From: Firmicutes bacterium HGW-Firmicutes-1
Lineage (GTDB): Bacteria > Bacillota > Clostridia > Lachnospirales > Vallitaleaceae
Assembly (NCBI GenBank): GCA_002841625.1
Contig: PHAG01000006.1
Coordinates: 1-64,000, forward strand
DNA length: 64,000 bases
Reading direction: 5' to 3'
The notes beneath the pieces are model-generated. The model was not told the origin of the DNA, searched no databases, and saw only the letters and a list, made by a program, of their open reading frames with translations. The position numbers and the translations under genes are program-made. This document shows positions 39,220 through 57,599 of this stretch, piece by piece. Position 1 is the first letter of the stretch. Every line of letters begins with the position of its first letter.

Positions 39220-40788
39220 ATGTCGCTAAATTTAAGAGAACAGAAAATGGATTTACTTAAGCCTAAGGGAAATCAAATGCTGCAAATGACTTTCGATGAG
39301 GATGTTAATGTTCCAGATATTAAGCCTGACATGGATAGAATATTGCAAACCAATGCTCAAGTTTCTATTGTTAAAGAAGAATTATTGCAAGATAGAATCA
39401 TATTGCAGGGAGATTTAAAGGTTAACATTCTTTATATACCTCTTAACGATAAGAAACCAATACATAGCTTGGAGGTTGTTTTTCCTTTTGAGGAGACAAT
39501 TAATGCGGATGGGTTGAGTGCAAGGGATCATATTAATATTTCAAGTAATGTTGAAGATTTGGTAGTTCATATGTTGAATTCTAGAAAGGTAAATGTCAAA
39601 TCTATATCTCAACTTAAAATGGATGTTCATGAAAAGAAAGAGGTTTATATAACCTCAGATATTGAAGGCAGTAAGGATGTTGAGAAAAAGATAAATCAAG
39701 TAGTTGCATGTCAACTTAAGGAATCAAGAAAAGATAGCTATAAAATTAAGGATGAAGTTGCAATTCCTTCGGGAAAACCAAATATGATGGAAGTTCTATG
39801 GCATGAAACAACAATTCAAAATAGAGATTTTAGATTGGTTGATGGAAAGCTTAATTTGAAAGGTACCATACACCTTGCAACACTATATGCTTCGGAAGCC
39901 TCTGAAAATAATATTGAATTTGTTGAACATGACCTTACTTTTAATGGTCTTTTAGACTGTCCTGGAAGTAAAGAAAATATGATTAATGACGTTCAAATGA
40001 AAATAGTTGATGATAAAATTCTAATTAGACCAGATTTAGATGGAGAAGAGAGAGTACTCAGTGTTGAAGTGGATACTAGAGTAGATATTAAAGTATACGA
40101 TGAGGAACAATCGAATGTTTTAGGAGATGTATATTCCTTAGAAAAAGATCTTATGATTAAAAAAGAACCAATTGCGTATCAAAAACTTCTATGTAAAAAT
40201 CAAAGCCAAACCAATATTAAGGAAACCGTTTTAATAGATGATATTTCAAAGGAAATCCTTCAAATTTATTATGCAAGTGGAAACTGTGCAATAGAAAACA
40301 TGATGCTTGCAGATGAAAAAATTAACATTGAAGGTGTTTTATTTTGCAAGATTATGTATATTGCAGCTGATGACCATATGCCGATTAATATTTTCGAAAT
40401 ACCAGTACCTTTTGAACACCAAATAGATATAAAAGGATTAAAATCTTCCAGTGTAGTGAATATTACTCCTTCGGTAAATTATATCGGTTGTACAATGGTA
40501 GGTGGAAAAGAAATCGAAATCAAGAGCACTGTGCAAATGAATACCATTGTTTTTGAAGAAAATTCAGTTGATATTATTACTGCAATTGATGAAAAAACGA
40601 TTGATATGAAGGCATTTCAAAATATCCCGGGAATAGTAGGGTACATTGTGAAGGATAAGGAAAGTTTATGGGATATAGCCAAAAAGTATAGAACTACTAT
40701 ACAGAACATTAAGAAGGCAAATAGCTTAGAGGATGATATCATTGGTAAGGGTGATAAGCTAATAATCGTAAAAGAACTACTCTTTTAG
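39220..40788 (+). CDS. DUF3794 (SPOCS) and LysM domain protein
   Basis: A 522-residue protein with DUF3794/SPOCS domains (DVNVPDIKPDMDRILQTNAQ at residues 28-47, repeated pattern near 190-300 and 330-450) and one C-terminal LysM (GYIVKDKESLWDIAKKYRTT, residues 470-520). LysM binds peptidoglycan; SPOCS occurs in spore coat or cortex morphogenesis proteins of Clostridia. It has no signal peptide, consistent with action on the spore surface from the mother cell. RBS AGGAGGAAGG. It often precedes ispE in clostridial genomes. Confidence 0.9.
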   Translation: MSLNLREQKMDLLKPKGNQMLQMTFDEDVNVPDIKPDMDRILQTNAQVSIVKEELLQDRIILQGDLKVNILYIPLNDKKPIHSLEVVFPFEETINADGLSARDHINISSNVEDLVVHMLNSRKVNVKSISQLKMDVHEKKEVYITSDIEGSKDVEKKINQVVACQLKESRKDSYKIKDEVAIPSGKPNMMEVLWHETTIQNRDFRLVDGKLNLKGTIHLATLYASEASENNIEFVEHDLTFNGLLDCPGSKENMINDVQMKIVDDKILIRPDLDGEERVLSVEVDTRVDIKVYDEEQSNVLGDVYSLEKDLMIKKEPIAYQKLLCKNQSQTNIKETVLIDDISKEILQIYYASGNCAIENMMLADEKINIEGVLFCKIMYIAADDHMPINIFEIPVPFEHQIDIKGLKSSSVVNITPSVNYIGCTMVGGKEIEIKSTVQMNTIVFEENSVDIITAIDEKTIDMKAFQNIPGIVGYIVKDKESLWDIAKKYRTTIQNIKKANSLEDDIIGKGDKLIIVKELLF

Positions 40789-40833
40789 CTCATTTAGGGA
40801 CATTTTTAGGGGGTTTAACCACTAGAAATGTCC

Positions 40834-40862
40834 TTGATTATTATAGTTTCTTTGTATATAAT
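40834..40862 (+). promoter_or_regulatory. Promoter for ispE-gntR
   Basis: TTGATT (40834-40839), 17 bp, TATAAT (40857-40862). Just upstream, GGGACATTTTTAG pairs with CTAGAAATGTCC (40798-40833), a probable terminator-like hairpin after the SPOCS gene, without a U-tract. Confidence 0.6.
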
Positions 40863-40921
40863 ATAAAGTATACAAAGTACAGATTGATTTTGTACAAGCT
40901 AATGTGAAAGAGGTAAGTCAG

Positions 40922-41818
40922 ATGAATGAGATTAGAATGAAGGCAAGAGCTAAAATTAATATTTCTTTGGATGTAATCAGAAAGCGTGAGGATGGATATC
41001 ACGATTTATCAATGATTATGCAGACAATTAATTTATACGACAAAGTAAATATTAAGCTAGGCGCAAAAAAAGCCTCGCCAATCACAATAAAGACGAATCT
41101 TAGTTTTTTACCTACAGATGATAAGAACTTAGTTTATAAGGTGATTGAATATATGAAGACGGTTTATGAGCTGAAAGAAAATATTTTCGTTGATTTATAT
41201 AAGGTTATTCCTATTGCAGCAGGTTTAGCTGGAGGAAGTGCAGATGCAGCGGCTACCATCAAGGCAATGAATTTATTATTCGGGTTAGAATTAAAGGTTG
41301 AAGAGATGATTGCAATTGGCAAACAATTTGGTGCGGATATTCCTTATTGTCTTGTGGAAGGGACAGTATTAGCAGAAGGAATTGGAGATGAGATGACTTA
41401 CTTACAACCATTTCCAGAATGCATTGTAGTGATTGCTAAGCCAAACATAAGTGTATCGACAGCATTTGTATATGGGAATTTAAAGCTTGATCAGGTTAAG
41501 AAAAGACCTAATAACCCTTTGCTTATTGAAGCAATTAACAAAGGTGATTTTGGTATAATAAGTAAGAATTTATGTAATGTTCTTGAAGAAGTGACGATAC
41601 CAGAATATCCTGTTATTGAGCAGATCAAGGATAGCATGCTGCTACATGGTGCGAGTGGAGCGTTAATGAGTGGAAGTGGATCTGCTGTATTTGGGTTATT
41701 TGAAGATAAACAGCAAGCCGTATTGGCTACATCAATACTCAAGAAGCAAGAACACATAAAGTTTGCATATGCAACAACAGTTTATAATAGAGAGAGGGAT
41801 TCAGATCATGGACAATAA
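40922..41818 (+). CDS. ispE: 4-diphosphocytidyl-2-C-methyl-D-erythritol kinase
   Basis: About 298 residues, GHMP kinase fold. KARAKINISLDVIRKREDGY starts the substrate site, the phosphate loop is PIAAGLAGGSADAAA and the C-terminal GSGSAVFGLF is conserved. It phosphorylates CDP-ME in the non-mevalonate isoprenoid route, so this cell makes isoprenoid precursors by that route. ATG 40922 is favoured by AGAGGT; an in-frame GTG is at 40904. It overlaps the next gene by 11 bp. Confidence 0.93.
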   Translation: MNEIRMKARAKINISLDVIRKREDGYHDLSMIMQTINLYDKVNIKLGAKKASPITIKTNLSFLPTDDKNLVYKVIEYMKTVYELKENIFVDLYKVIPIAAGLAGGSADAAATIKAMNLLFGLELKVEEMIAIGKQFGADIPYCLVEGTVLAEGIGDEMTYLQPFPECIVVIAKPNISVSTAFVYGNLKLDQVKKRPNNPLLIEAINKGDFGIISKNLCNVLEEVTIPEYPVIEQIKDSMLLHGASGALMSGSGSAVFGLFEDKQQAVLATSILKKQEHIKFAYATTVYNRERDSDHGQ

Positions 41819-42473
41819 GCTATCAGTCACTTTAAATGAATATTTACCTTTGAGAGATGTAGTTTTCAATACACTTAGAGAAGCAATTTTAAAAGGTGAG
41901 CTTGTTCCAGGAGAAAGGCTTATGGAGAAGACTTTGTCAGATAGAATGGGTGTTAGCAGGACGCCTATTAGAGAGGCAATTAGAAAGCTTGAATTAGAAG
42001 GTTTGGTTCTAATGGTACCAAGGAAGGGCGCTGAGGTTGCCAAAATAACTGAAAAAGATATAACAGATTTATTAGAGGTAAGAGCCACACTTGAAGCACT
42101 CGCTGCTAGGCTTGCCTGTGAAAGAATGAGTGAAGAAAGCATTGAGAAATTGATAGGTTTAAAGAATGAGTTTGCTCGCGCTGCAAAGAAAAAGGATGTT
42201 GAACTAATTATTAAGAAAGACATTGAATTTCATGATGCTATATTTGCTGCAACAGGAAATGAAAAGCTTATTCAAATTGTTAGCAACTTGAGAGAACAGA
42301 TTTACAGATTTAGAGTTAAATATATTCAACAAATGCCAGATTATCAAGTCCTTGTCAACGAGCATGAAGAAATTGTAGATAGTATTATCAATCATAACAA
42401 GCAAAAAGCAGAAGAAATTGTTATTAGACACATTGCAAATCAAGAAAAAGCAGTAATTGAAATGTTAGATTAA
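41808..42473 (+). CDS. GntR-family regulator (FadR/FCD subfamily)
   Basis: About 221 residues. N-terminal winged helix: LREAILKGELVPGERLMEKT and MGVSRTPIREAIRKLELEGL. C-terminal FCD domain with metal/ligand residues in FHDAIFAATGN and HEEIVDSI, RHI. Its effector is unknown; FCD members bind small carboxylates. It overlaps ispE and ends at a strong terminator, so it is cotranscribed with ispE. Confidence 0.88.
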   Translation: MDNKLSVTLNEYLPLRDVVFNTLREAILKGELVPGERLMEKTLSDRMGVSRTPIREAIRKLELEGLVLMVPRKGAEVAKITEKDITDLLEVRATLEALAARLACERMSEESIEKLIGLKNEFARAAKKKDVELIIKKDIEFHDAIFAATGNEKLIQIVSNLREQIYRFRVKYIQQMPDYQVLVNEHEEIVDSIINHNKQKAEEIVIRHIANQEKAVIEMLD

Positions 42474-42504
42474 TGGAGTTGTACATCTTATAAATAAATA
42501 TGTA

Positions 42505-42547
42505 GGGCCATGCGATAAATACTTGGGTATTATCACATGGCCCTTTT
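42505..42547 (+). terminator. Terminator after ispE-gntR
   Basis: GGGCCATG-GATAA pairs with TTATC-CATGGCCC (one bulge each side), followed by TTTT. Confidence 0.9.
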
Positions 42548-42553
42548 AGATTT

Positions 42554-42620
42554 GCATAAGTAATTGGAAAAGCGGCAGATGGGCAAACGAAGATATAAGT
42601 ATACATAGCCGATTTTCTTG
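42554..42620. repeat. Family 1 hairpin repeat, copy 4
   Basis: GCATAAGTAATTGGAAAAGC ... ATAGCCGATTTTCTTG, seven bases after the terminator. Confidence 0.85.
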
Positions 42621-42637
42621 TTTTCTAGGAATGATCT

Positions 42638-42700
42638 GCATAAGCAATTGGAAAAGCGGCAGATGGGCATCGAAGAGATAAGTATATATAGCCGATTTTC
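42638..42700. repeat. Family 1 hairpin repeat, copy 5
   Basis: GCATAAGCAATTGGAAAAGC ... ATAGCCGATTTTC; tandem with copy 4 at an 84-bp period with the linker TTTTCTAGGAATGATCT. Confidence 0.85.
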
Positions 42701-42800
42701 TGTAACTAGAAAAATTTGTATAATAATCAATAACTTATCAAATACTTTATTAATAACATTATGAATCAGTCGAGAATCTTTGAAATAAAAGGAGTATTCA

Positions 42801-43022
42801 ATGCTATTAAAAAGTATCTTGCGAGAGTTTTCCAGCATCATCTCTATGCAATTCATGATCATGATGGTGATTATTGCTCTAATATTAATATTTCATGACA
42901 GCCCTATGTTAGAAAAGAAAGGTGCAACAAAGGATAGTAAAATGGCAAAGTTTTGTGGGGTTGTTTATTTGATCCTTGGGGTTAGTCTATATTTTGCTGC
43001 AAAAATAGTAAGGAGTATATGA
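42801..43022 (+). CDS. Small two-helix membrane protein (CLC_0170-like)
   Basis: A 73-residue protein with membrane helices at about 12-32 and 50-70 and a short polar loop (HDSPMLEKKGATKDSKMAKF). Its size, topology and place just ahead of a gerA-type operon match the CLC_0170 group of spore-formers; this is recall, not a search. RBS AAAGGAG. It is three bases upstream of gerKA and is probably part of that operon. Function unknown. Confidence 0.75.
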   Translation: MLLKSILREFSSIISMQFMIMMVIIALILIFHDSPMLEKKGATKDSKMAKFCGVVYLILGVSLYFAAKIVRSI

Positions 43023-43025
43023 TTA

Positions 43026-44570
43026 ATGAAAAGTATCAGTAGCCTTCATAATAAAGAAACAAATAAAATTGAATTAGATTTAATGAAAAGCCTTGACGAG
43101 AACATAAAGGTTTTTGAAGCTCTGTTTAACAACTGTGATGATGTGATTAAAAAGAAGTTTCAAATCGGAGAGTTAGATAGCGTGTGGGGATATATCAGTT
43201 ACGTAGACTCAATGGTTAATCGTAAGGTGGTAGAGGACTCAATCCTTGAACAGATTATAGAGCAAATTAAGAATGTTCCAAAAAACATATCGGAAAATCT
43301 TAATTTATTTGAATTCGTTAAGAGTTATGCAATATCTACAGCTGATGTAAAGGAATTATTTACCTTTGATGAAGCGTGTCTTGCCGTGTTATCGGGAGAT
43401 ACGATCATGTTTATAGATGGTTTTGATAAAGGGCTGCTTATTGCAACGAAAGGTTGGCCCAATAGAGGAGTTCAAGAGCCAGATACAGAAGGAGTTGTTA
43501 GAGGATCGAAGGAAGGTTTTAGTGAAGCACTTCGCATAAATACTGTATTGGTTAGAAGACGAATTAGAGATACAAAGCTTAAAGTAAGACAAGAACAGGT
43601 AGGTACAAGAAGTAGAACGGATATAGCCATTATGTATATCGAGGATTTAGCAAGAAAAGAGGTCTTAAAGGAAATAGATATAAGGCTTCATAGCTTCACT
43701 ATAGATGCAATTTTTGAAAGTGGTATGCTTGAAGAAATTATGGAAAAGGAATGGAAATCGCCCTTTCCTAGAGCTCAAGTTACGCAAAGGCCAGATAAGG
43801 TCGCTTCAGCGCTGCTGGAAGGGAGAGTAGCAATCGTTGTTGATAATACACCATTTGTACTTTTGCTTCCAACAACAATAAATTGTTTTTTTCAGTCTTC
43901 CGAGGATTATTATCAAGGCTTCCTATTTTCGAGCTTTGTGAGAGTATTAAGATATGTATCTGCGGCTATGGCAGTAGCCTTGCCAGGATTATATATTGCG
44001 CTAACATGTTTTCATACAGCGATGATTCCACCAGAGCTTGTGTATTCAATAGCTGCTGCAAGACAGGGGGTACCTTTTCCAACGATTATTGAAGTATTGA
44101 TCATTGAATTAGAATTTGAGTTTTTAAGAGAAGCTGCGGTTCGGCTCCCGGGTTCCATCGGTAGTACCATTAGTATTGTAGGTGGATTGGTAATTGGCCA
44201 AGCAGCAGTAGCTGCAAATATAGTAAGCCCAATCATTATAGTAATTGTAGCGATTACTGCTATCGCTTCGTTTTCGATACCAAATTATACCCTTGCAAAT
44301 GCTTATAGAGTTGTAAAATACTGGATTATATTGGGATCAAGTATGTTTGGTTTGTACGGTTTTTGGATTTGTATATTGGTGGTATTAATACATCTTGTAT
44401 CTTTAAAAAGTGTTAATTTTCCTTATTTAATGCCCTTTGTATCAGGTGATATAAATGGGGATAATGACCTTAAAGATAGCTTTTTTAGATTTCCAGTTTT
44501 CTACTACACGAAAAGACCAATATTTACACGAAAAGGTGAAAAATTGAGATTTAAGGTTAAGCATAAATAA
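43026..44570 (+). CDS. gerKA: Spore germination receptor subunit A (GerA/GerKA family)
   Basis: A 514-residue A subunit: soluble N-terminal domain (about 1-285), then about five membrane helices (from SFVRVLRYVSAAMAVALPGL) with the conserved PFPTIIEVLIIELEFEFLRE and EAAVRLPGSIGSTISIVGGL. It forms the inner-membrane spore nutrient receptor with B and C subunits. Ligand unknown. The order A-B-C with short gaps or overlap is canonical. Confidence 0.93.
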   Translation: MKSISSLHNKETNKIELDLMKSLDENIKVFEALFNNCDDVIKKKFQIGELDSVWGYISYVDSMVNRKVVEDSILEQIIEQIKNVPKNISENLNLFEFVKSYAISTADVKELFTFDEACLAVLSGDTIMFIDGFDKGLLIATKGWPNRGVQEPDTEGVVRGSKEGFSEALRINTVLVRRRIRDTKLKVRQEQVGTRSRTDIAIMYIEDLARKEVLKEIDIRLHSFTIDAIFESGMLEEIMEKEWKSPFPRAQVTQRPDKVASALLEGRVAIVVDNTPFVLLLPTTINCFFQSSEDYYQGFLFSSFVRVLRYVSAAMAVALPGLYIALTCFHTAMIPPELVYSIAAARQGVPFPTIIEVLIIELEFEFLREAAVRLPGSIGSTISIVGGLVIGQAAVAANIVSPIIIVIVAITAIASFSIPNYTLANAYRVVKYWIILGSSMFGLYGFWICILVVLIHLVSLKSVNFPYLMPFVSGDINGDNDLKDSFFRFPVFYYTKRPIFTRKGEKLRFKVKHK

Positions 44571-44581
44571 GGAGGAGAAAC

Positions 44582-45694
44582 ATGTTTTCAGGTAATGATA
44601 AAATATCAATTAGACAGTTACAAATTTTGTTGATACTTACTCTTTTTACAAGTGTGAGTCTCATTTTGCCTAGAATTACTACGGAATATGCAAAGCAAAA
44701 TGGTTGGCTTTTAATTATTGGGGCTGCGGTTCTTACGATGTTGTATAGTTATTTTATTACAACACTTGGGAAAATGTTTCCAGATAAGACAATTGTTGAG
44801 TATTCTCAAGAAATAGTTACGAAACCAATAGGCAGCCTTATCTGTTGGATATTGGTTATTAAATTAATCATATTTCTTGGACTTGAAATTAGAATTTTCG
44901 GGGAGCTTGTCAAACAAACGCTATTAAGTAATACACCTATAGAATTTATCATGATAATAATGCTGTTTACAGCAGTTTACTTAACTAGAAAAGGCTATGA
45001 ACCTAGGGCTAGGATTGCTGAACTAATCATTTTTCTTGGGCTTATTCCAATCATGTTGGTGCTCCTTTTTGCATTACAAGATATTAGATTAGACAGATTG
45101 GCGCCATTTTTTACCATAAAAGCGTCTGAATTTGTTGCAGGTAGTTACTTTATTTCAACTGCAATGGTAGGGATTGAATTTTTATATATTGCAATACCCT
45201 TTTTAAGGACTCCACAAAAAGTAACAAAGGCTGTAATGCAGACTGTAATATTTGTAGCAATACTAAATTTAATGATTAATTTTATTACTGTTGGGCTTTT
45301 TGGACCTATAAAAACAGCAAGAGAGATATGGCCAGTTATGACTATAATGCAAGTGATTGAGTTGCCGGGAGCCTTCATTTCTAGACAAGATGCATTAATG
45401 ATGAGTTTTTGGATATTGACTACCTTCGGGTTAATTAATTGTTATATATTTTTTATTAGCATACTTACATCAAGATTGATTAAGTCAAAAGAAGCTAATT
45501 GGATTAATCTATTGGTTATTCCAATTGTTTATGTAATAGCATTGGTTCCAAACAATGTTCCGCATACTTTTGAAACGATAAAAAGGTTAATACAATTATA
45601 TGGCATAATCTTTGTTTTGCCTGTCCCAATCCTACTTTTGGGAATAGCGAAAATTAGAAAGTTAGGTGTAAAAGATGATACGAAGCAGAATTAA
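44582..45694 (+). CDS. gerKB: Spore germination receptor subunit B (GerB/GerKB family)
   Basis: A 370-residue permease-like protein of the APC superfamily with ten membrane helices (ISIRQLQILLILTLFTSVSL; LTRKGYEPRARIAELIIFLG). It carries the germinant-binding pocket in characterised receptors. RBS AAGGAGGAG. It overlaps gerKC by 20 bp. Confidence 0.92.
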   Translation: MFSGNDKISIRQLQILLILTLFTSVSLILPRITTEYAKQNGWLLIIGAAVLTMLYSYFITTLGKMFPDKTIVEYSQEIVTKPIGSLICWILVIKLIIFLGLEIRIFGELVKQTLLSNTPIEFIMIIMLFTAVYLTRKGYEPRARIAELIIFLGLIPIMLVLLFALQDIRLDRLAPFFTIKASEFVAGSYFISTAMVGIEFLYIAIPFLRTPQKVTKAVMQTVIFVAILNLMINFITVGLFGPIKTAREIWPVMTIMQVIELPGAFISRQDALMMSFWILTTFGLINCYIFFISILTSRLIKSKEANWINLLVIPIVYVIALVPNNVPHTFETIKRLIQLYGIIFVLPVPILLLGIAKIRKLGVKDDTKQN

Positions 45695-46817
45695 ACTATT
45701 CATTACTTGTATAATAATATGTGTTTGTTTATGCGGATGTTGGGATAAGGTAGAAATAAATGATAGGGCGTTTGTAATGGGTATTGGCTTAGACAAAAAG
45801 GATGATCTTTTACAAGTTACCTATACGATACCTAATTTACCTGTTCTTACTGGTCAAGGTGGTGGGGATGAAAAAAACTTTGTTAAGGTTGTAGAAGCAG
45901 AAACATTACATGATGCAAATAAAAAGTATAATTTAATTAGTCCAGATAAGTTGACATTTGATCATTCAAAAATAATTGTTATGGGAAATGAATTTCTGCA
46001 GGATGATGTTGCAATGAGAAAGATGTTAGACTATTTAACAAGGAGCCCAGAATATGCAATGAGTTTATTGATCATTACAACTGATAAAACTGCAAAGGAA
46101 CTCTTAGAAGCTAAACCAAATGCAGAGGAACCAAACAGTTTGTTTATTTCCGAGCTGTTTAGTGGCATGGAAGCAGAAGAAGTGAATGATTATAAAACAA
46201 CTCTATTGGATTTTTTGATTTCGGTAATGGATACTAAAGGCGGGGGAAGCTTGCCTCTAATAAAATATAAAGATAAAGAGATAAGCCTCGACGGCATTAC
46301 AATCATTAAGGGTTTTAAAGAATGTGGCACATTATCAATTGAACAAATGGTTCCGTTCAATTGGATAAGGGGTACAGATAAAGGCGAGAACACGATCAGG
46401 AAAGAAACTTATATATTAAAAAACATTACCTATGAGATTAGTGAAGTAAAAAGGAAAGTAGAATTTAAAAAAACCAAGCAAGGTATAGATATTAATATTT
46501 TAGTAAGTATGGAAGGAGATATTATAGAATTTGAGCTTGCGAAGGATATTGAGAAGGAAGAAGACTTTTTTAAAGAAAAATCAATAAAAGAAATGGAAAA
46601 AGAGCTTAAAGAAGGAATGGAAGAAGAAGCAAATTCAATGGTTAAATATATTCAAAATGAATTAGGAGTGGATATATTAGATTTGTCAGAATCCATGAAA
46701 ATACAAGAAGGAAAGCTTTGGGAAGAAATGAAAGATAACTGGGATTTGTATTTTGTAAGTGCCAATATCCATGTAGAAATAGAACCTAACATTAGAAGAA
46801 TAGGCATGACGAAATAA
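45675..46817 (+). CDS. gerKC: Spore germination lipoprotein C (GerC/GerKC family)
   Basis: A 380-residue lipoprotein with the signal IIICVCLCGCW (Cys lipidated) and the family start CWDKVEINDRAFVMGIGLDK. The three-domain C subunit includes LDYLTRSPEYAMSLLIITTD and a C-terminal coiled segment. It completes the receptor. The start inside gerKB shows translational coupling. Confidence 0.92.
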   Translation: MIRSRIKLFITCIIICVCLCGCWDKVEINDRAFVMGIGLDKKDDLLQVTYTIPNLPVLTGQGGGDEKNFVKVVEAETLHDANKKYNLISPDKLTFDHSKIIVMGNEFLQDDVAMRKMLDYLTRSPEYAMSLLIITTDKTAKELLEAKPNAEEPNSLFISELFSGMEAEEVNDYKTTLLDFLISVMDTKGGGSLPLIKYKDKEISLDGITIIKGFKECGTLSIEQMVPFNWIRGTDKGENTIRKETYILKNITYEISEVKRKVEFKKTKQGIDINILVSMEGDIIEFELAKDIEKEEDFFKEKSIKEMEKELKEGMEEEANSMVKYIQNELGVDILDLSESMKIQEGKLWEEMKDNWDLYFVSANIHVEIEPNIRRIGMTK

Positions 46818-46821
46818 TTTT

Positions 46822-46849
46822 GTATAAAAATTCTTATTTGGGAAATAAT
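46822..46849 (+). promoter_or_regulatory. Sigma-F-type promoter of spoIIR
   Basis: GTATA (46822-46826), a 14-bp spacer and GGAAATAAT (46841-46849). This matches the forespore sigma-F pattern (GYATA, then GGnnAnAmT), and spoIIR is the classic sigma-F target. It starts five bases past the gerKC stop. Confidence 0.65.
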
Positions 46850-46897
46850 TAAGTTATTAACTGAAATATATACATGGATAGAAAACGGGGGATTGTC

Positions 46898-47614
46898 ATG
46901 AAAAATAATAATTCATTTATCATTAAAAAAACAAATAAGAGAAGAACAGCGATAGGAGCTGGCATTGTTATCTTAGCTCTACTTGCTATCATTTATGATA
47001 TGACGATAGGTTTTACAAAGGAAAAGGATGTTGTTGTAGAAGGTTTATCCAATAGCCTGATAAGGTTTCATGTTATTGCTAACAGCGATTCAGAAGAAGA
47101 CCAGTCACTCAAGGTAAAAGTAAAGGATGAAGTCATCGAAATGATGCAGGTACTACTACAGGAATCAACGTCTGTTGATGCATCCCGAGAAATTATCCTT
47201 AAAAATATGAGTAATATTAAACAAACAGCTGAAAATGTAATTAATGAGAATAATTTTAGTGATGAAGTAACGATTGCCTTACAAAAGCAAGAGTTTCCAT
47301 TAAAGCAATATGGAGATATTGTTTTGCCACCGGGAGAATATGAGGCACTGGTGATACGTATTGGTGCCGCAGAAGGCAAAAATTGGTGGTGTGTACTATT
47401 CCCACCCCTATGCTTTGTAGATGCAACCCATGGCGTAGTCGATAACCAATCCAAACAAGCCCTAAAAGACGTGCTATCAGATGATGAGTATGCAGCGATT
47501 GTGATGTCAAAGGACAAGGATGTTAATATCAAAGTGAAAAGCAGACTATTCAAATGGTTTTCGGAGAAAGATCGTGATGATATAGATGAAACTGTATTTG
47601 CTGATAAAAGATAA
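46898..47614 (+). CDS. spoIIR: Stage II sporulation protein R
   Basis: About 238 residues, one N-terminal membrane helix or signal anchor (RRTAIGAGIVILALLAIIYD) then the SpoIIR domain: LIRFHVIANSDSEEDQSLKV, VKDEV, and the hallmark GKNWWCVLFPPLCFVD. It is secreted from the forespore to trigger processing of pro-sigma-E by SpoIIGA. ATG 46898 with GGGGGA upstream is preferred to ATG 46874. It is monocistronic from the sigma-F promoter. Confidence 0.93.
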   Translation: MKNNNSFIIKKTNKRRTAIGAGIVILALLAIIYDMTIGFTKEKDVVVEGLSNSLIRFHVIANSDSEEDQSLKVKVKDEVIEMMQVLLQESTSVDASREIILKNMSNIKQTAENVINENNFSDEVTIALQKQEFPLKQYGDIVLPPGEYEALVIRIGAAEGKNWWCVLFPPLCFVDATHGVVDNQSKQALKDVLSDDEYAAIVMSKDKDVNIKVKSRLFKWFSEKDRDDIDETVFADKR

Positions 47615-47630
47615 AATGATTAGTGATATA

Positions 47631-47825
47631 AGGTTGAAGGCTGTCGATAAAAGCATTTTTTCTGATAGGTGTATTGATTATTGGCAGTAAGTGTTCATTT
47701 TTCTGGCCTTACCCTTCGGCCGGTCAGGCGAAAAATGAACACTTACTGCCTTTATATTGATATAGAAGAAAAAATGCTTTTATCTCTGTTTCTTAATTGG
47801 TAAATAATTAAAGTGCCAATAACCT
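47631..47825. repeat. Family 2 MITE-like palindrome, copy 1
   Basis: Nested inverted repeats: GATAAAAGCATTTTTTCT pairs with AGAAAAAATGCTTTTATC; inside, GGCAGTAAGTGTTCATTTTTC pairs with its complement; the centre is GGCC-TTACCCTTC-GGCC. Ends are imperfect inverted repeats starting AGGTT. No coding capacity. Confidence 0.85.
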
Positions 47826-47841
47826 GGAAGCTTAGTGATAT

Positions 47842-48036
47842 AGGTTGAGTGCTGTCGATAAAAGCATTTTTTCTGATAGGTGTATTGATTATTGGCAGTA
47901 AGTATTCATTTTTCTGGCCTTACTCTTCGGCCGGACAGGCGAAAAATGAACACTTACTGCCTTTGAATTAATATAGAAGAAAAAATGCTTTTATCTCTGT
48001 TTCGGTAATTGATAAATAATTCGACGTCAACAACCG
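47842..48036. repeat. Family 2 MITE-like palindrome, copy 2
   Basis: A tandem second copy, about 211 bp after copy 1, with only scattered substitutions (GTGTTCATT to GTATTCATT on the left arm; CCCTTCGGCC to CTCTTCGGCC). Both are preceded by TTAGTGATAT. Confidence 0.85.
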
Positions 48037-48053
48037 GGAACCTAAGTAACATA

Positions 48054-48206
48054 AGGTTGTTTGCTATTAATTTATAATACAGAGATAAAGAGGTTATACT
48101 ATGTGTTTGATAGTGGAGCAGGAGGAGGAATGGCGTGACTTAACCCGCATGGATGCGGGTTGGAGCGAAAAAAACACATATTATAACCTCTTTGTCGACA
48201 ACGACC
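48054..48206. repeat. Long palindrome, structural relative of family 2
   Basis: AAAGAGGTTATA (48087-48098) pairs with TATAACCTCTTT (48182-48193) and TATGTGTTT with AAACACATA; the centre is CCCGCAT-GG-ATGCGGG. Ends AGGTTG ... GTCGACAACGACC resemble family 2 ends, but the arms are different. Outside it lies ATATCACTAA, inverse to the TTAGTGATAT before copy 1. Confidence 0.7.
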
Positions 48207-48247
48207 GATATCACTAAAAAGAATAACCTCTTTGTTGCCATCCTAAC

Positions 48248-48305
48248 ACCTATAAAACAATAGGTTTATTTTTATGTTGATAATTACGCTGTTTAGATAT
48301 AAAAT
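48248..48305 (+). promoter_or_regulatory. Small hairpin and promoter of murI
   Basis: ACCTAT-AAAACA-ATAGGT with TTATTTTT (48248-48274) looks like a terminator that isolates murI from upstream repeats. TTGATA (48277-48282), 17 bp, TAAAAT (48300-48305) is the promoter. Confidence 0.6.
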
Positions 48306-48340
48306 AAAGGAGGTAATGAAAGTAACTGTGGAGGAACACA

Positions 48341-49141
48341 ATGGATAATAGACCAATTGGCGTATTTGATTCGGGCTTTGGTGGTTTAACAATAGCCAAG
48401 GAGATTATGGATCATTTAACAAACGAAAGAATTGTTTACTTTGGCGATACTGCACGTATTCCTTATGGCAGTAAATCCAAGGAAACAATTATTAAATATT
48501 CAGCTCAGATTATTAGGTTTTTACAAACAAAAGATGTTAAAGCGATAGTAATCGCTTGTGGTACAGCAAGTGCTACCGCCTTAGAGGCAGTAAGAGAGAA
48601 ATTTGATTTGCCAATCATTGGTGTTGTTGAGCCGGCTGCAATGTCTGCAGTCAAGGAAACAAAAAACAATCGAATTGGTATTATCGGAACGGATGGAACA
48701 ATAGCAAGCAAATCATATGATCAGGTAATTTATAAGCAAACGAAGAATATAGATGTATTTTCAACGGCTTGTCCTTTATTTGTACCGTTAGTTGAAGAAG
48801 GCTGGCTAGAAGATGAAGTTACAGTTGAGGTTGCAAAAAGATATTTAAAAACATTGAAGGATAAAGATGTTGATACATTAATATTAGGATGTACGCATTA
48901 TCCACTATTGTCAAAGATTATTGGGGAGATAATGGGGGATGTAACCTTAATTAACCCAGCCAATGAGACAGCGGCAGTATTAGATAAGTTACTTACTTCA
49001 AAGGACTTGAAGCACGATGATCACGAACCAATTCATGAGTTTTATGTAAGTGATCGTGCGAATAAGTTTGAAGCATTTGCAAAGATAATTTTACAGAGAC
49101 AAACATTGCATGTTCAGCATATCAATATAGAAAACTATTAA
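48341..49141 (+). CDS. murI: Glutamate racemase
   Basis: A 266-residue enzyme supplying D-glutamate for peptidoglycan. IGVFDSGFGGLTIAKEI has the first catalytic region, VIACGTASATAL the first catalytic Cys, and LILGCTHYPLL the second Cys-Thr-His. VYFGDTARIPYG is conserved. The start follows GTGGAGG; a second AAAGGAGG lies a little upstream, before another ATG out of frame. Confidence 0.94.
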   Translation: MDNRPIGVFDSGFGGLTIAKEIMDHLTNERIVYFGDTARIPYGSKSKETIIKYSAQIIRFLQTKDVKAIVIACGTASATALEAVREKFDLPIIGVVEPAAMSAVKETKNNRIGIIGTDGTIASKSYDQVIYKQTKNIDVFSTACPLFVPLVEEGWLEDEVTVEVAKRYLKTLKDKDVDTLILGCTHYPLLSKIIGEIMGDVTLINPANETAAVLDKLLTSKDLKHDDHEPIHEFYVSDRANKFEAFAKIILQRQTLHVQHINIENY

Positions 49142-49162
49142 TGGAAAGAGACAAAAGTAAAT

Positions 49163-49600
49163 ATGAAAAAAGATGTACTTATAACTGTAAAAGGTATTCA
49201 AGGTGATGTATTAGATAGTGAAAAAATTGAGATGATCACTACTGGATCATTTTATGAAAAGAATGACAAGTATTATATTCATTACATTGATACCGCCCTA
49301 GACTCTGAGGTAGAGACAAAAACCTCTGTAAAGATGAATTCTAACAAGGTGTCTATTACTAGATTTGGAGCAACCAGTACCCATATGATTTTTGAAGAAG
49401 GGGTAAGTCATTATGCACCCTATGAAACTCCTTTTGGTATTTTTGAAATAAAAACGCATACCAATAAAATCTCTTTGGAAAAAAATGAGACGAGCTTGAA
49501 GTTAGCGGTAGAATATTTGTTAGAGATCAATAAAAGATCATCAGGTGTTGCTTATTTTGAGCTATATGCAAAAGAGATGAATGAAGAAACTATCTTGTAA
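49163..49600 (+). CDS. DUF1934 protein (YwiB-like)
   Basis: A 145-residue beta-barrel (calycin-like) protein. ITVKGIQGDVLDSEKIEMIT and HYAPYETPFGIFEIKTHTNK match DUF1934. No activity is established. It is 21 bp after murI, likely cotranscribed. Confidence 0.88.
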   Translation: MKKDVLITVKGIQGDVLDSEKIEMITTGSFYEKNDKYYIHYIDTALDSEVETKTSVKMNSNKVSITRFGATSTHMIFEEGVSHYAPYETPFGIFEIKTHTNKISLEKNETSLKLAVEYLLEINKRSSGVAYFELYAKEMNEETIL

Positions 49601-49692
49601 TGTAATTGTAAACAAATACACCTTAAAAAACCTTAAGGAAATGCCGAAATAATAATAAGCAACTAAGATAGATCTGCATTGGAGGCTTTTTT

Positions 49693-52659
49693 ATGAGAAG
49701 AAATATATTAGCAATGGCAATGGTCATGATTTTGTTAATTCATAGTGTATATATGATTTATGGTGCGACAGATACAAGTGTATTATCAGAACCGATCAGT
49801 GGCGTTTATACAGCAAGGACTACAGGAAATGCCATTATTAACAATCTCCGTTTTACGGATCTTGCTACTTCCCATTGGGCAAAGGAGCCTATTACAAGAT
49901 TAGGTGCCATAGAGGTAATTAAAGGTGATTCTAATGGAAGGTATAGACCAAATGCAGCAGTTTCGAAAGAAGAGGCATTGGCGCTATTAATTAGAATGGT
50001 TGGAAAAGAAGGTGAAGCAATTCTTGCAGCTGAGCAGCTTGCGGCGGGGAATGCTACCGAAGAGGCTCTAAAAACTACTTGGTCAAAAGGCTATATGAAA
50101 GTAGCAAATAGTATGGGACTCATTACTGCGGCAGAATATAGAGATTCAATAGCAGATGATCAAACGAGCTTAGATCCTACATTAAGCTTTATGAGACAAA
50201 ATGCTGTAACGAGAGAACAAATTGCAAAATGGATTGTGGAGGCAGTGAGCACCATCAAGCCAGATCAACTGACCCCTGTTTATACGCAACAGGCTATTTT
50301 TAATTATACCGACTGGAATAATATGGGAGCAGAATTTACTCCTTACATAGAAGCGGTAACTAAAAATAAAATTATGGTAGGAAATGGCGGAAGATTTCAA
50401 CCAAAATCTTCTTTAACGAGAGCTGAGTTTGCACAGATTTTAAAAAACATGGACAAAACCCTTTACGATTCTATGACTATAGATCAAAAGGGTGGATTTG
50501 TTGCAGCCATTATAGATTCCAATGTAATTGATCCTATTACTGGGACGGCTACTAGATCCTTCTTAATTCGTAACAATGAAGGAAAGGTAGACCAACTGAA
50601 TTATGAATATAAGAAGAATGCTGGAAACCAAATCGCTACGAAGGACACACCAGTATATCAAGCGGGAGCGGTTAACAGTATGCTTTCCTTAAAGGAAGGA
50701 GAGGCTGTTGAGTACTTAGTGGACCAAGAAACAAAGGAACTTCTTTATGTATATAGCAAAGGAGATACCAAGCCTGTGAAGGTTACAGGTATATTGCAAC
50801 CAATTACTGGACTTGATCAGGGACAAATTACAATCAAGACAAAAGATGGAGTGCTTTTTACTTATCCTATGAGAGCTAGTCTCTATGATTCAGTAGGTAA
50901 AACGGTGAGAATTGATGGAAAAACATATACGTCGGATACAGCACCTGTTAGCGCATCGGTTATATTGACATTGCTTAATTCGATAGTTACAGACATAAAC
51001 TATATTGGAACTGAAACAGTATATTCTGAAGTAAGTGGTATAGTTAAGGATAATAATCCGGCCTTTTCTTACATTACAATCATTGATTGGAATGGAAAAG
51101 AAATTACCAAAAGCTATAATAAAGGCAAGGTAGTTGTGGAGAAGCAGAATTATTATGATGAATCAGATGAAATTGGATATATAGATCAAATGTTCCCGGA
51201 CTTTAGATTTGATGACAGAGATAGTAATGTTGAAGAGATTGAGGTGGGTGACATTGTTCACTTGAAAATAGATCCTACAAATAAGGACTACGTATCGGCA
51301 ATTAGTGCTAAGACAAATTATGTAGTAAAATATGGAACAGTGAAGGATATTGCCTATAAGGGCGCAGAAGGAGCTAATATTATAATTGGTTATGATGACT
51401 TATCTGTAGCAACTTATGAAATATCTTCTGGTATACCTGTATTAAAATCAGGAAAAAATGTTGGATTATTAAACCTATTACCAGGAGATGTTGTTAGAAT
51501 GCTTATAAATCAAGCGGTACTAGAACCGGGGAATGTTAAAGAAACAGTAAAAGAATTAATTATAGATCAATATGGCAACCAAGTTGCAAATGTATATAAA
51601 GGACAGATGAGTACGATTAATAAACAACAAAGAAAAGTAACCTTGAACAATTCTTATTCATTGACAGCTTTGGGTTGGGGAAATTATGCGCCAGCAAAAG
51701 CCTTTGATATATCTGCAGCAGATGTTGAATACTTTCAAGGTGGAAAGCAAATTTCCCTTGAATATGCAGAAAAATACTTAACACAAGCGGGTATTGAAGC
51801 CTATGTAGTAACATCTGAATATCCAGGTACAGAAAAAGTTGAAAAGATTACTTTTAGGGAAGGAAGAGATTCAGTATTATCACCAAGTAACGTGACCTAC
51901 TCAAATGGCTTAGATAAGCTGACTATTCTTTCGGAAAGCAACACCATTGCTATGGATCCCGGTACGATTGTAATTAAGAATGGTAAGCTTGTACAAGCAG
52001 GGAATGTGATAGCCCCTGACTATGCTCAAGTCATTTTAAATGGTAATTCTAGTGCAGCTATTGTAAATATTGAACCCGAACCTAACAATGATGCTATTTC
52101 TGTATTTAGAGGTAGAATTCAGAGTATCAAGGAAGGCGAATCTTTCCAAGTTCAGTCCCATGCTGTATTAATGGATGTGAAATGGATATATTCACCCATT
52201 CCTAGGATCTATAATTTAACGAGTAGTACTCTAATTTATGACGAAGATGGAATCATACCTTTTGATGAATTTGTTGATTATTCAGATATTTCAAAGGCTG
52301 ACGAAGTATATACCATAATTGCAGAAGGTACTAACGCAAGTTATCTAGTTAAAAATCCATATGCTACTGAAGGGGTAAAAGGACAAGTTTATGAAGTGAA
52401 TGAAAGCTCAATCATGATAAAGGATGCATCAGTCTATTCTTCAGCTACGAACAAGTGGACAATCTTAAGCTTGAGTAATAACTATGCACAGATGAATACC
52501 TTCACCAATTCAGTAATCATCAAAAACAATAAGGTGATTACTAAAGACGAACTTAAACTTGGAGACAATATTAGGATCATGACTACTGAAGACTTAGCCA
52601 GCAAGTTATTATTGAATTCTAAAAGAGATGTTGATGCATATATCATTTTTGTAGAATAA
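49693..52659 (+). CDS. Large S-layer-homology surface protein
   Basis: A 988-residue secreted protein: signal peptide to about residue 26 (ending YGATDT), three SLH repeats in residues 50-260 (RFTDLATSHWAKEPITRLGA; GDSNGRYRPNAAVSKEEALA; RFQPKSSLTRAEFAQILKNM), then about 700 residues of beta-rich repeats without a recognised domain. It probably binds wall polymer by the SLH end and exposes the rest. The gene downstream also has SLH repeats, but at its C-terminus; the two may form a surface assembly. Confidence 0.88.
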   Translation: MRRNILAMAMVMILLIHSVYMIYGATDTSVLSEPISGVYTARTTGNAIINNLRFTDLATSHWAKEPITRLGAIEVIKGDSNGRYRPNAAVSKEEALALLIRMVGKEGEAILAAEQLAAGNATEEALKTTWSKGYMKVANSMGLITAAEYRDSIADDQTSLDPTLSFMRQNAVTREQIAKWIVEAVSTIKPDQLTPVYTQQAIFNYTDWNNMGAEFTPYIEAVTKNKIMVGNGGRFQPKSSLTRAEFAQILKNMDKTLYDSMTIDQKGGFVAAIIDSNVIDPITGTATRSFLIRNNEGKVDQLNYEYKKNAGNQIATKDTPVYQAGAVNSMLSLKEGEAVEYLVDQETKELLYVYSKGDTKPVKVTGILQPITGLDQGQITIKTKDGVLFTYPMRASLYDSVGKTVRIDGKTYTSDTAPVSASVILTLLNSIVTDINYIGTETVYSEVSGIVKDNNPAFSYITIIDWNGKEITKSYNKGKVVVEKQNYYDESDEIGYIDQMFPDFRFDDRDSNVEEIEVGDIVHLKIDPTNKDYVSAISAKTNYVVKYGTVKDIAYKGAEGANIIIGYDDLSVATYEISSGIPVLKSGKNVGLLNLLPGDVVRMLINQAVLEPGNVKETVKELIIDQYGNQVANVYKGQMSTINKQQRKVTLNNSYSLTALGWGNYAPAKAFDISAADVEYFQGGKQISLEYAEKYLTQAGIEAYVVTSEYPGTEKVEKITFREGRDSVLSPSNVTYSNGLDKLTILSESNTIAMDPGTIVIKNGKLVQAGNVIAPDYAQVILNGNSSAAIVNIEPEPNNDAISVFRGRIQSIKEGESFQVQSHAVLMDVKWIYSPIPRIYNLTSSTLIYDEDGIIPFDEFVDYSDISKADEVYTIIAEGTNASYLVKNPYATEGVKGQVYEVNESSIMIKDASVYSSATNKWTILSLSNNYAQMNTFTNSVIIKNNKVITKDELKLGDNIRIMTTEDLASKLLLNSKRDVDAYIIFVE

Positions 52660-52689
52660 GAATTGATAAGTAAAGAAAGAGGTGCTACT

Positions 52690-54192
52690 ATGAAAAAATA
52701 TAAAGAAATTATTTTATGCGTTTCTTTAATGATGATTTTATTTATCAGTATTTCCTATGGAGATGATGGTGGAGAAATGGGTTATTCAGGTGGAATTTCT
52801 GAAGGAACCAATTTACCCTATACAATGGACAAGTACGTGGATTCTAAGATTAAAAAACAAACCGTATTTGATTATCGAGAAATTGTGTTTCTATCAGGTG
52901 TTCCGATAGAATGCAAAGGTACCATTACTATTGTGAAGGGCGAAGTAGATTATATTAAGGAACCAAGTGGTACCTATAAAGAAACCTATACGATTAAAGC
53001 AAGTGATACAGCTGGAACAGCAAACATTAGTCGAACCCTTAATTTTACAACTTCATATAGAGTGAAAGAAGGAGAATTTAAGCGACAAATCATTAGAAAT
53101 TCACAGCTTACAAAGTGGACAGAAACGATTGTAACGCCAGAGGGTACATACGCATTAATCGAAACAGCGTCTACTTATTCGAAATCTTCAATTGAAGATT
53201 TGACACCGGGTGTTAGCTATTATGATACGGTTATTTCTTATAACGCTCATTATAGTATTGATGAGAAGGAAGTTATTTCCATGGTAAACGGTAATATTTA
53301 TGGTTATTCACAGCCGTGGTCAAAGGTAGAAGCACAAAAATTGAAAATGGAGATTTCACGTGATGGTGGAGCAACCTTCGATACGGTAATAGAATTGAAA
53401 CCTTTTTTAGAAGCAAAAAAAACCTTATATTATGATGAGACAGATCCATTTCCAATTAGCTTTGGAGGAACCTTCAACCAAAGACTTGAGAGAGAATCAA
53501 CCTTGTCTTACAATATTCTATCCTCGAGCAAAGTATTAACAAGTAAACAAAAGAATGGAAACATTTTAATTTCCCCCGCAAATGATCTTGAAAAACTGCC
53601 TATTCCCGAAAATCTTGATTTTATAGCAGGGCATTGGGCGGAAGAAGATGTTAAGAAAATGTACAGTATGGAGATATTTACGGATACTCCGAATAATGGA
53701 ATGCAGTATCAAGCAATGCATCGAGGTGCTTTTGTGAAAGCGTTATGTCTTTCTATGGATATTAGCACTGAAAAATATGATAAAGTAACGAAGACTTCAC
53801 CTCAAATATTTGCAGATGTTCCTACAACACATCCGCTATATAAATACATCATGGCAGCATATGATGTTAAGCTTATTAAAGGTATCGGCACAAAATTTGG
53901 TGTTGATGTACCGATTACAAGGCAAGAGGCCTTTACTATTTATGTTAGAGTAATCGGGTTAGAAAGACTTGGAATTACGAATAGCCCTCAAACCCCTTTT
54001 CTTGATGACAATAAGATTGCATCATGGGCTAAAAAAGAAATTATGGCAGGTTTTAAATTAGGGATTATTAAAGGGGACAATGGTTATGTAAAACCAACCC
54101 AATGGATCTCAAAGGCAGAGGCTGCAGCTATAATTAACAGATTAGTGGATTATTTAAGAGAAGAAATTTCTGTAGATTATCGAAAAAACTAA
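52690..54192 (+). CDS. Secreted protein with C-terminal SLH repeats
   Basis: About 500 residues with a signal peptide (MKKYKEIILCVSLMMILFIS to about residue 23), a beta-rich N-terminal region (25-310) that I do not recognise, then three SLH repeats (about 315-495; IAGHWAEEDVKKMYSMEIFT, FADVPTTHPLYKYIMAAYDV, and KEIMAGFKLGIIKGDNGYV). ATG 52690 follows AGAGGTG; an upstream in-frame start at 52663 precedes no signal peptide. It lies 30 bp after the larger SLH gene. Confidence 0.87.
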   Translation: MKKYKEIILCVSLMMILFISISYGDDGGEMGYSGGISEGTNLPYTMDKYVDSKIKKQTVFDYREIVFLSGVPIECKGTITIVKGEVDYIKEPSGTYKETYTIKASDTAGTANISRTLNFTTSYRVKEGEFKRQIIRNSQLTKWTETIVTPEGTYALIETASTYSKSSIEDLTPGVSYYDTVISYNAHYSIDEKEVISMVNGNIYGYSQPWSKVEAQKLKMEISRDGGATFDTVIELKPFLEAKKTLYYDETDPFPISFGGTFNQRLERESTLSYNILSSSKVLTSKQKNGNILISPANDLEKLPIPENLDFIAGHWAEEDVKKMYSMEIFTDTPNNGMQYQAMHRGAFVKALCLSMDISTEKYDKVTKTSPQIFADVPTTHPLYKYIMAAYDVKLIKGIGTKFGVDVPITRQEAFTIYVRVIGLERLGITNSPQTPFLDDNKIASWAKKEIMAGFKLGIIKGDNGYVKPTQWISKAEAAAIINRLVDYLREEISVDYRKN

Positions 54193-54222
54193 ATTAGTTA
54201 ATTTCTTGTTCACTAAGAACTA

Positions 54223-54287
54223 CATATACAATTGGAAAAGCGGCAGATGTGTAACAAGTATTTAAACTTAGCGTAGCCGTTTTTCTT
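54223..54287. repeat. Family 1 hairpin repeat, copy 6
   Basis: CATATACAATTGGAAAAGC ... GTAGCCGTTTTTCTT, with inner stem AAGT-ATTTAA-ACTT. It separates the SLH genes from the protease gene. Confidence 0.8.
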
Positions 54288-54305
54288 CTAACAAAGAACG
54301 TTGTA

Positions 54306-54370
54306 CATATGAAATTGGAAAAGCGGCAAACGTGTAACAAGTGTTTAAACTTAGCGTAGCCGTTTTTCTT
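54306..54370. repeat. Family 1 hairpin repeat, copy 7
   Basis: CATATGAAATTGGAAAAGC ... GTAGCCGTTTTTCTT; tandem with copy 6 at an 83-bp period, with the same inner stem (AAGT/ACTT). Confidence 0.8.
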
Positions 54371-54410
54371 GGAAAACAAAATATTGATAGACAAATCGGA
54401 GGAATACCAA

Positions 54411-55808
54411 ATGAAAAAGATGATCATGCTCCTAGTATTTATGGTTTTTGTTAGCTTTCCAATTGCGAGCTATGCAGAAACTACAACAACGGTTGAAACT
54501 ACTGTAGAATATGACAGAATGTTTAAAGAGGTAATGGACTATGTTAGAGGGACTTATATTAAGGGAGATGAACTTACTGAACAACAATTATTTGAAGCTG
54601 CAATGAAAGGGATGTTTGGTGAATTAGATGTTTATTCAGAATTTATGACACCAGCTGAAGGAGCTGAATTTACTGAATCACTTAATGCAACCTATGTTGG
54701 CATCGGTGTTCAACTTACAACAGTTGGCGAGTATATTGGAATTAGTAAGGTGTTCAAGGGGTCTCCTGCTCTTGCAGCGGGAGTAAAAAAAGGAGATTAT
54801 TTTGTAAGTGTTGATGGAGTTAGCGTAAAAGGCTTTTCTACTGAGGAGCTGTTAAAATTAGTACTAGGTGAAGAAGGTACGACTGTTAAAATTACCTTTG
54901 GAAGAGGTGGAACAACATACGCCGTAGACATCATTAGAACGTTAATAAAAATACCGACAGTTGAAACTCTTAAAATTTCGGATTTATATAAAGGGCTGAA
55001 GGCTGAAGATGAAAACCAAATAGCATACATATCTTTATCAAGCTTTTCACAAAAAACAGATATCGAATTTAAAGATGCTATTGGAGTGGCTCAATCAACG
55101 GGTGCTAAATACCTTATTTTAGATATGAGAAATAATGGTGGTGGATATGTATCAACTGCTGTAAACATAGCACAAAGCATTGTTCCTGAAGGACCAATTG
55201 TTCGCTTTGTTGATGCAAGCGGGGCGGAAGTCGTTCATTCTTCAACAGCAAAAAGCGTTCCTTTTGAGATTGTAGTACTTGTTAATGAATATAGTGCCTC
55301 TGCAACTGAGTTTGTTACAGCTGCAATTCAAGATTCTAAAGCTGGCACAGTAGTAGGAGAAACAACCTACGGCAAAGGTGTTGCACAGTATTTCGCCGGG
55401 TATGAACAAGGATATATTATTAAATTAACCATGGAAGAATTTTTTTCAAGAAACAATAATAAAATTAATGAAGTAGGAGTTAAGCCAGACTATTTTATTG
55501 AAATACCGGATTATTTAATGGGAGAAACCAAATACTATTTACATGATGAAGTTGATAATGTTATACAAGTAGAAAAGGTTTTGAATTTTCTAGGATATAA
55601 TGTTGGAACTCCAGATAAAAAATATGATCGAAAAACCTTTAATGCTGTTAAGAAATTCCAACTTGATCATGGATTATATGGTTATGGTGGGTGTGATTTT
55701 TCTACACAAGCGAAGTTAAATGAGGCAATGCTTAAATCTATTGAAGCAAATGATCCACAAGTTCACAAGGCGGTATCCTTAATACTAGACAAAATACATA
55801 AAAATTAA
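54411..55808 (+). CDS. C-terminal processing protease (S41, CtpA type)
   Basis: About 465 residues. Signal peptide (to about 24), a PDZ domain (about 90-175; GVKKGDYFVSVDGVSVKGF), the S41 catalytic core with Ser in NEYSASATEFVTAAI and Lys in GETTYGKGVAQ, and a C-terminal peptidoglycan-binding domain (VLNFLGYNVGTPDKKYDRKT). It cleaves exported proteins near their C-termini and may bind the wall. ATG 54411 follows CGGAGG; an in-frame upstream ATG falls next to the repeat. Confidence 0.92.
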   Translation: MKKMIMLLVFMVFVSFPIASYAETTTTVETTVEYDRMFKEVMDYVRGTYIKGDELTEQQLFEAAMKGMFGELDVYSEFMTPAEGAEFTESLNATYVGIGVQLTTVGEYIGISKVFKGSPALAAGVKKGDYFVSVDGVSVKGFSTEELLKLVLGEEGTTVKITFGRGGTTYAVDIIRTLIKIPTVETLKISDLYKGLKAEDENQIAYISLSSFSQKTDIEFKDAIGVAQSTGAKYLILDMRNNGGGYVSTAVNIAQSIVPEGPIVRFVDASGAEVVHSSTAKSVPFEIVVLVNEYSASATEFVTAAIQDSKAGTVVGETTYGKGVAQYFAGYEQGYIIKLTMEEFFSRNNNKINEVGVKPDYFIEIPDYLMGETKYYLHDEVDNVIQVEKVLNFLGYNVGTPDKKYDRKTFNAVKKFQLDHGLYGYGGCDFSTQAKLNEAMLKSIEANDPQVHKAVSLILDKIHKN

Positions 55809-55816
55809 TATATAGC

Positions 55817-55845
55817 TTGACTTATCAACAGACTAATACTAAAAT
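55817..55845 (+). promoter_or_regulatory. Promoter of pyrG
   Basis: TTGACT (55817-55822), 17 bp, TAAAAT (55840-55845). The leader is about 55 nt. No GGG start region typical of the Bacillus pyrG attenuator is seen. Confidence 0.6.
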
Positions 55846-55893
55846 ATAAGAGTTGTAATTTTAAGAACTTAATAACAATTTAAATATATGTGA

Positions 55894-57513
<1,620 letters not shown>

Positions 57514-57599
57514 TACAGTAGTGTTTAAAAAACAAGAACGCATCAAGGGACTGTTGCATAACGTGAGTTGTGTAATGGTTCCTTTTTTGCACCTTATAG

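Follow-up and report, generated by a model that had tools for sequence, protein, structure and literature searches.

The gap between spoIIR and murI lies within the window analyzed here, a 64,000-nucleotide stretch of the genome of Firmicutes bacterium HGW-Firmicutes-1 (designated G000), and contains three giant palindromes, which had been proposed from a sequence-only reading of this DNA and are confirmed by both direct reading and a repeat search. Specifically, positions 47637-48205 consist of two 190-bp palindromic elements, E1 and E2, and a 153-bp element, E3, that has other arms and the opposite orientation; the boundaries of all three were set by lining up 43 copies of the E1 family together with their flanks. 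E1 (47637-47826, plus strand), a candidate MITE with the 5' end (C)AGGCTGTCGATAAAAG and the 3' end CAATAACCTG, is built of outer arms at 47646-47663 and 47767-47784 and inner arms at 47683-47703 and 47730-47750. E2 (47848-48037, plus strand) is a second copy of this family, in the same orientation and 91% identical to E1, and the repeat search recovers the pair as two direct 162-nt copies (47631-47792 and 47842-48003) with 95% identity. The outer arms (18 nt) are 100% complementary, and the inner arms (21 nt) are 100% and 95% complementary in the two copies. E3 (48053-48205, minus strand), a candidate MITE of a second family, has 25-nt arms at 48084-48108 and 48172-48196 (92%), a foot reading GACAAAGAGG/CCTCTTTATC on the minus strand and the end GTCGACAAC on the plus strand. 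Folded as RNA, the three palindromes yield -81.2, -76.0, and -54.2 kcal/mol.

Interspersed with these elements are four copies of an apparent target sequence. T1 (47618-47636, plus strand; GATTAGTGATATAAGGTTG-like) lies to the left of E1, directly past the spoIIR stop; T2 (47827-47847, plus strand; GAAGCTTAGTGATATAGGTTG) separates E1 from E2; T3 (48038-48058, plus strand; GAACCTAAGTAACATAAGGTT) forms a small hairpin and overlaps the end of E3 with its final bases; and T4 (48206-48217, minus strand; CGATATCACTAA) is inverted. The copies have diverged from one another, and T1 aligns with T2 at a score of 29, the 99th percentile of mismatched flank pairs being 21. The sequence TTAGTGATAT at 47620 and its counterpart ATATCACTAA at 48208 are present as first reported, where they were taken for an inverted repeat bounding a composite. 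TTAGTGATAT appears again at 47832, in the gap separating E1 from E2, and in diverged form near 48044; it is therefore a mark of the target copies and not of composite ends, and the two outer occurrences are the outermost pair of a repeated target sequence, one copy of which is inverted. Beyond T4, an E3-like end survives as an older relic (ATAACCTCTTTGTTGCCATCC; 48223-48245, no strand assigned) that adjoins the terminator.

A third E1-family copy in the window (57605-57797, plus strand) has the best-kept ends (CAGGCTGTCGACAAAAG ... TTGTCGACAACCTG); a perfect 30-nt stem-loop (GAAGGGACATTCCATATGGAATGTCCCTTC; 57797-57826, no strand assigned) abuts its right end, whereas the left side holds CCCTTC only. 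In the congener G001, the locus between the equivalents of window positions 57500 and 57901 (L177:10330-12730) carries, where the window has this E1 copy, a 415-aa gene resembling AAA-type ATPases, located between a pair of giant palindromes, inverted and GC-rich, whose tips are similar.

Dispersed families with IS1182-type ends

The sequence-only reading would have been overturned had each arm been unique in the genome, and neither family is: E1 is dispersed over at least 41 places in its own genome (E below 1e-54), a count for which 40 of 121 candidates were scored and which may therefore be an underestimate, while E3 is found at eight places other than its own, nine in all, as well as in fragments. 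Genome-wide, the pattern of the E1 outer arms has 46+41 = 87 matches at up to three mismatches and the reversed pattern has 0, which shows that the palindrome cluster is not a product of chance. Five contigs of the 33-contig draft (C1, C4, C9, C12, and C24) end within three bases of an E1 arm, and E1 copies thus break the assembly. Among 59 genomes searched, including its own, six contain a match to E1, and near-full copies outside G000 number four, all of them in G001.

Several further arrangements of these repeats were observed. The inner tip of E1 (TTCATTTTTC...TTCGGCCGG...GAAAAATGAA) also occurs as stand-alone hairpins in G000 (L144:1746-1825, contig C3) and G001 (L160:1486-1563 and L161:1486-1565), where the outer stems are unlike in sequence, yet complementary, and in genus g8 (L147, L148, L149, L153, and L156, near 1495-1575). 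Other E1 copies (L024, L127, L129, L134, L138, and L143 in G000; L171 in G001) lie within the CACCA..TGGTG hairpin of another repeat, which is bounded by AATGTCC/GGACATT, resembles a second insertion-sequence remnant, and is presumably IS21-like; these copies may have spread by hitch-hiking. Finally, near position 64900 of contig C6 (L013:1690-2060), an E1 copy and an E3-like fragment have as their neighbor a further long, GC-rich palindrome (GGGGGTGCC...GGCACCCCC).

Despite their different interiors, E1 and E3 have the end (CAG)RYTGTCGACAAAG in common, which bears out the earlier suggestion of similar ends that enclose different interiors as if recognized by one enzyme. The terminal sequence of the E1 copies is CAGACTGTCGACAAAAG, and the GACAAAG bases of the E1/E3 end double as the palindrome's foot, which CTTTRTC closes. 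With one mismatch allowed, the pattern AGRYTGTCGACAAA is found at 56 places in G000, compared with 11 for the control. One of the matches (L167; C8:47399-47708) is a 310-bp element that has kept its ends, the left one being exactly CAGRYTGTCGACAAAG; at four others outside the family (L164, L165, L166, and L168) no transposon was recognized by eye. A spaced-end pattern for tandem ends gave no match, and among single-end loci of genus g3 the only complete element is a 222-bp MITE (L205), no matching right end being present within 2.5 kb at up to three mismatches for L199-L204 and L206.

A search for the exact 16-base end in 392 genomes of the order found it in nine. In one of these, G099, which belongs to another family of the order, the exact end CAGRYTGTCGACAAAG occurs twice, in facing orientation and at a distance of 1617 bp, with a 459-aa transposase encoded in between. 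This protein scores 470.4 bits against the IS1182 model NF033551 (cut-off 270) and contains the Pfam domains PF05598 and PF13751; the flanks of the element, split between two contigs, share a 17-bp hairpin. A transposon of full length whose ends match, proposed earlier as a thing to look for, thus exists and belongs to the IS1182 family, but the genome of the window holds none: neither the HMM nor a protein search found an IS1182 transposase in G000, a draft in which several contigs end in E1 arms. The absence of a helper weakens the view that the elements are mobilized now, not the view that they are derived from such an insertion sequence. Since the end of E1-E3 also bounds an insertion sequence with an IS1182 transposase, the earlier reading of a MITE array can be upheld and made specific, the elements being classed as IS1182-type MITEs.

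Consistent with this assignment is the structure found directly inside the ends. Of 40 IS1182 ends, 36 have a subterminal hairpin whose foot lies in GACAAAG, compared with 52 of 160 interior controls, and the same configuration is formed by the E1 arm (GACAAAAGC/GCTTTTATC) and by the E3 foot. The giant palindromes of E1 and E3 therefore occupy the same place as the subterminal hairpin of the insertion-sequence end.

Terminators as targets and duplication of the stem-loop

Elements with these ends sit at intrinsic terminators, often between direct copies of the whole stem-loop. According to crude ORF calls (at least 70 aa), 36 of 43 E1 copies have the 3' end of a gene on their left and none lies inside an ORF. 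The sequence-only reading was right in spirit about target-site duplications, which do exist, though in the form of whole terminator stem-loops on both flanks, and the same terminator hairpin is found on both sides of many E1 copies. When left flanks are aligned with right flanks, 14 of the 43 copies score above the 99th percentile of mismatched pairs and 29 do not, and 17 score above the 95th; one low-scoring copy, L017, has the same hairpin on both sides but has lost its right end. Hairpins of energy -5 or lower abut 17 of 43 left ends and 12 of 27 right ends, against 21/129 and 15/127 in displaced controls (Fisher p=2e-6).

Further insertions were taken from finished records. A tblastn search with the G099 transposase matched 898 plasmid and 14 phage records, and from named records 18 IS1182 loci were taken, of which 16 have both ends (L256 and L261, with one end missing, were dropped); together with L233, L234, L235, G099, and L167, these make a set of 21 insertions of insertion sequences or MITEs, within which L262 and L263 are not independent, as they are phages with the same insertion. 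In 14 of the 21, the flanks are identical over 17-35 bp and each flank is a stem-loop, and the length of the duplication follows that of the independently folded hairpin with r=0.99. L167 is an example in which each side carries a perfect 21-bp copy of the terminator hairpin. Two different, complete terminator-like hairpins abut the ends of six insertions (L233, L234, L235, L255, L257, and L267), which could be recombinants between copies of the insertion sequence or insertions between two terminators, and the flanks of the remaining one, L263, have diverged.

These data bear upon two alternative explanations. The first sees in the elements no more than ordinary MITEs whose target duplication is long; terminators would be hit simply as safe intergenic places, and the fit to the hairpin would be a by-product of selection. 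Most E1 copies do follow closely behind a gene, a position that would tolerate insertions of any kind. Duplications that track hairpin length from 17 to 35 bp are, however, not what a fixed stagger would produce, and the hairpin feet fall at the element boundary itself; this explanation is accordingly judged very improbable. The second, to which even less weight is given, invokes a Y1 transposase (RAYT or IS200/IS605) as the mover of REP/BIME-like palindromes: the elements resemble such palindromes in structure, intergenic location, high copy number, and a conserved tip with internal loops, but they end like an IS1182 element and lie between stem-loop duplications, whereas Y1 elements are not known to make a target duplication.

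Further information is provided by the congener G001, in which 12 gene pieces from 11 loci were sought and 13 places obtained, allowing nine sites to be compared. Four of these (L167, L006, L011, and L014) are clean empty sites, in which G001 has one stem-loop with the same core and no element while G000 has two stem-loops. At the other sites G001 displays another single terminator (L007), another palindrome array (L010), or no clear hairpin (L137), and L016 and L017 are not alignable on both sides. The spoIIR-murI gap of G001 (L177:692-778, equivalent to window 47615-48341) lacks E1, E2, and E3; next to its terminator is a palindrome unlike them, which has TTTTTGTCGACAACCTAAGACC as its end and is located at the position equivalent to the relic at 48223-48245. 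As this palindrome has the same kind of end, the gap was probably used by an earlier insertion and hit repeatedly. With regard to mobility, what is observed here are fixed insertions and empty sites.

Taken together, the explanation that best accounts for the data, to which a probability of roughly 0.88 is assigned, is that E1, E2, and E3 are non-autonomous IS1182-type MITEs that inserted at terminators and duplicated the whole stem-loop. Each would carry the insertion-sequence end CAGRYTGTCGACAAAG, with the foot GACAAAG..CTTTGTC closing a subterminal hairpin that in the MITEs has been enlarged into the giant palindrome. As G000 contains no IS1182 transposase, mobilization in trans is proposed from the ends and the target habit: a full-length relative, now absent from the assembly, would have supplied the transposase that acted on the MITEs of the window, leading to insertion beside the spoIIR terminator. 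The intrinsic terminator would be recognized by its stem-loop and not by its sequence, joining would take place at the two stem-loop feet, and gap repair would then copy the whole stem-loop to both sides, such that the upstream gene retains its terminator and the element gains one per side. That an extruded cruciform or a single-stranded hairpin is what the transposase attacks is an inference, and so is the order of insertions in the window.

Relation to known mobile elements

The closest described counterparts are IS1272 and TnSha1, staphylococcal elements of the IS1182 family, which are reported to target stem-loops of whatever sequence, confirmed transcription terminators among them (PMC4923244; PMC5678879). 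The elements described here are alike in family and in target, but unlike in leaving a stem-loop copy on both sides, since IS1272 is reported to delete or replace its target stem-loop without target duplication (Furi 2016, PMC4923244; Wan 2017, PMC5678879). Replacement of this type does not fit the two identical stem-loops in 14 of 21 insertions, nor the four sites with a single stem-loop in G001 where G000 has two. A pathway put forward as a hypothesis in Wan 2017 (Fig. 13, pathway b; PMC5678879) predicts exactly such a stem-loop duplication. No paper describing duplication of the whole stem-loop by such elements was found in a literature scope that lacked most subscription journals, and passages of PMC2828477 and PMC9208149 do not describe it.

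Likenesses and differences extend to other systems. IS1182 elements on finished replicons (ISEfa7-like, IS1562 transposase, or "IS1182 family transposase") have ends like CAGACTGWAGACAAAN and subterminal hairpins, and those with both ends encode transposases approximately 50-64% identical and show a perfect stem-loop duplication in most cases; these are full-length elements with a transposase gene, whereas E1-E3 have no gene and a much longer palindrome. Correia, RUP, BOX, and MITEAba12 elements are, like E1-E3, short, non-coding, and present in many copies between genes, but their ends differ, and the target duplications of RUP and MITEAba12 are short and fixed. Group IIC introns insert at terminator stem-loops, as the present elements do, but are RNA-based and are not known to have terminal inverted repeats or to duplicate the stem-loop. 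Insertion-sequence catalogues list direct repeats of widely varying length for IS1182 elements, and part of the finding may therefore be known to curators. Judged from sequence comparison, the cluster in the window would be an array of IS1182-type MITEs whose novelty lies in its stem-loop-copying insertion.

Conservation of the hairpins and their possible roles

The stems of the MITEs are unusually conserved between copies and show compensatory changes, so a functional hairpin or host role is possible, and the processed structured RNA suggested by the sequence-only reading may be one form of it. Specifically, the giant palindromes could be structures used by the host, as RNA 3'-end hairpins or as DNA structures, and maintained by selection, with transposition explaining their origin only. 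Across 41 copies (L136 and L137, which have internal deletions, being left out), paired columns differ from the consensus by 1.6% and unpaired columns by 10.6%; two-sided compensatory cells, which count sequences and not events and derive from four pairs, number eight compared with 0.6 in shuffles (maximum 3); and 19 cells are broken compared with at least 27 in shuffles. Every one of the 41 copies has fewer changes in its arms than in spacer plus tail, although tail divergence is in part misalignment at truncated ends, and private changes per column range from 0.10 to 0.33 in the arms and reach 0.63 and 1.00 in the two spacers. Moreover, the left end of E1 points toward the upstream gene at 21 of 23 tandem sites, with two opposite (p=7e-5), but this orientation may stem from the insertion mechanism, and the hitch-hiking copies are not independent. 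The upstream terminator copy would often stop transcription before the hairpin is reached; changes to G-U and to A-C comprise 10 and 6 distinct events, which does not discriminate between strands or between RNA and DNA; and no family of Rfam 15 reaches its gathering score in window positions 40000-60000, the best match having 28.4 bits against a cut-off of 63 and the sub-threshold matches being microRNA-like long hairpins only. A role of this kind is viewed as rather doubtful; it concerns the present function of the copies and is compatible with their origin as IS1182-type MITEs.

Target duplications are normally of fixed length, set by the transposase. Here, it is the stem-loop of the target that dictates the length, and the known relative IS1272 is reported to do the opposite by deleting it. 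With filled and empty versions of a site to compare, it can be understood how mobile DNA enters a terminator that nonetheless stays intact, and the proposed attack on a cruciform becomes directly testable. The MITE family, whose conserved stems lie behind many genes, also offers a natural set for asking whether hairpins acquire a host role. Tentatively, and at somewhat less than even odds, IS1182-type transposases may measure their target by structure, binding a four-way junction and duplicating one stem-loop, with the resulting hairpins subsequently selected by the host. If this is true, the transposase would bind the junction of an extruded terminator and join the element to both feet of the stem-loop, and the duplication would invariably span one complete stem-loop, however long; the host's stop signal, copied to both sides, would make the element nearly harmless; and host selection would then have maintained the MITE hairpins of this genus behind genes in a single orientation.
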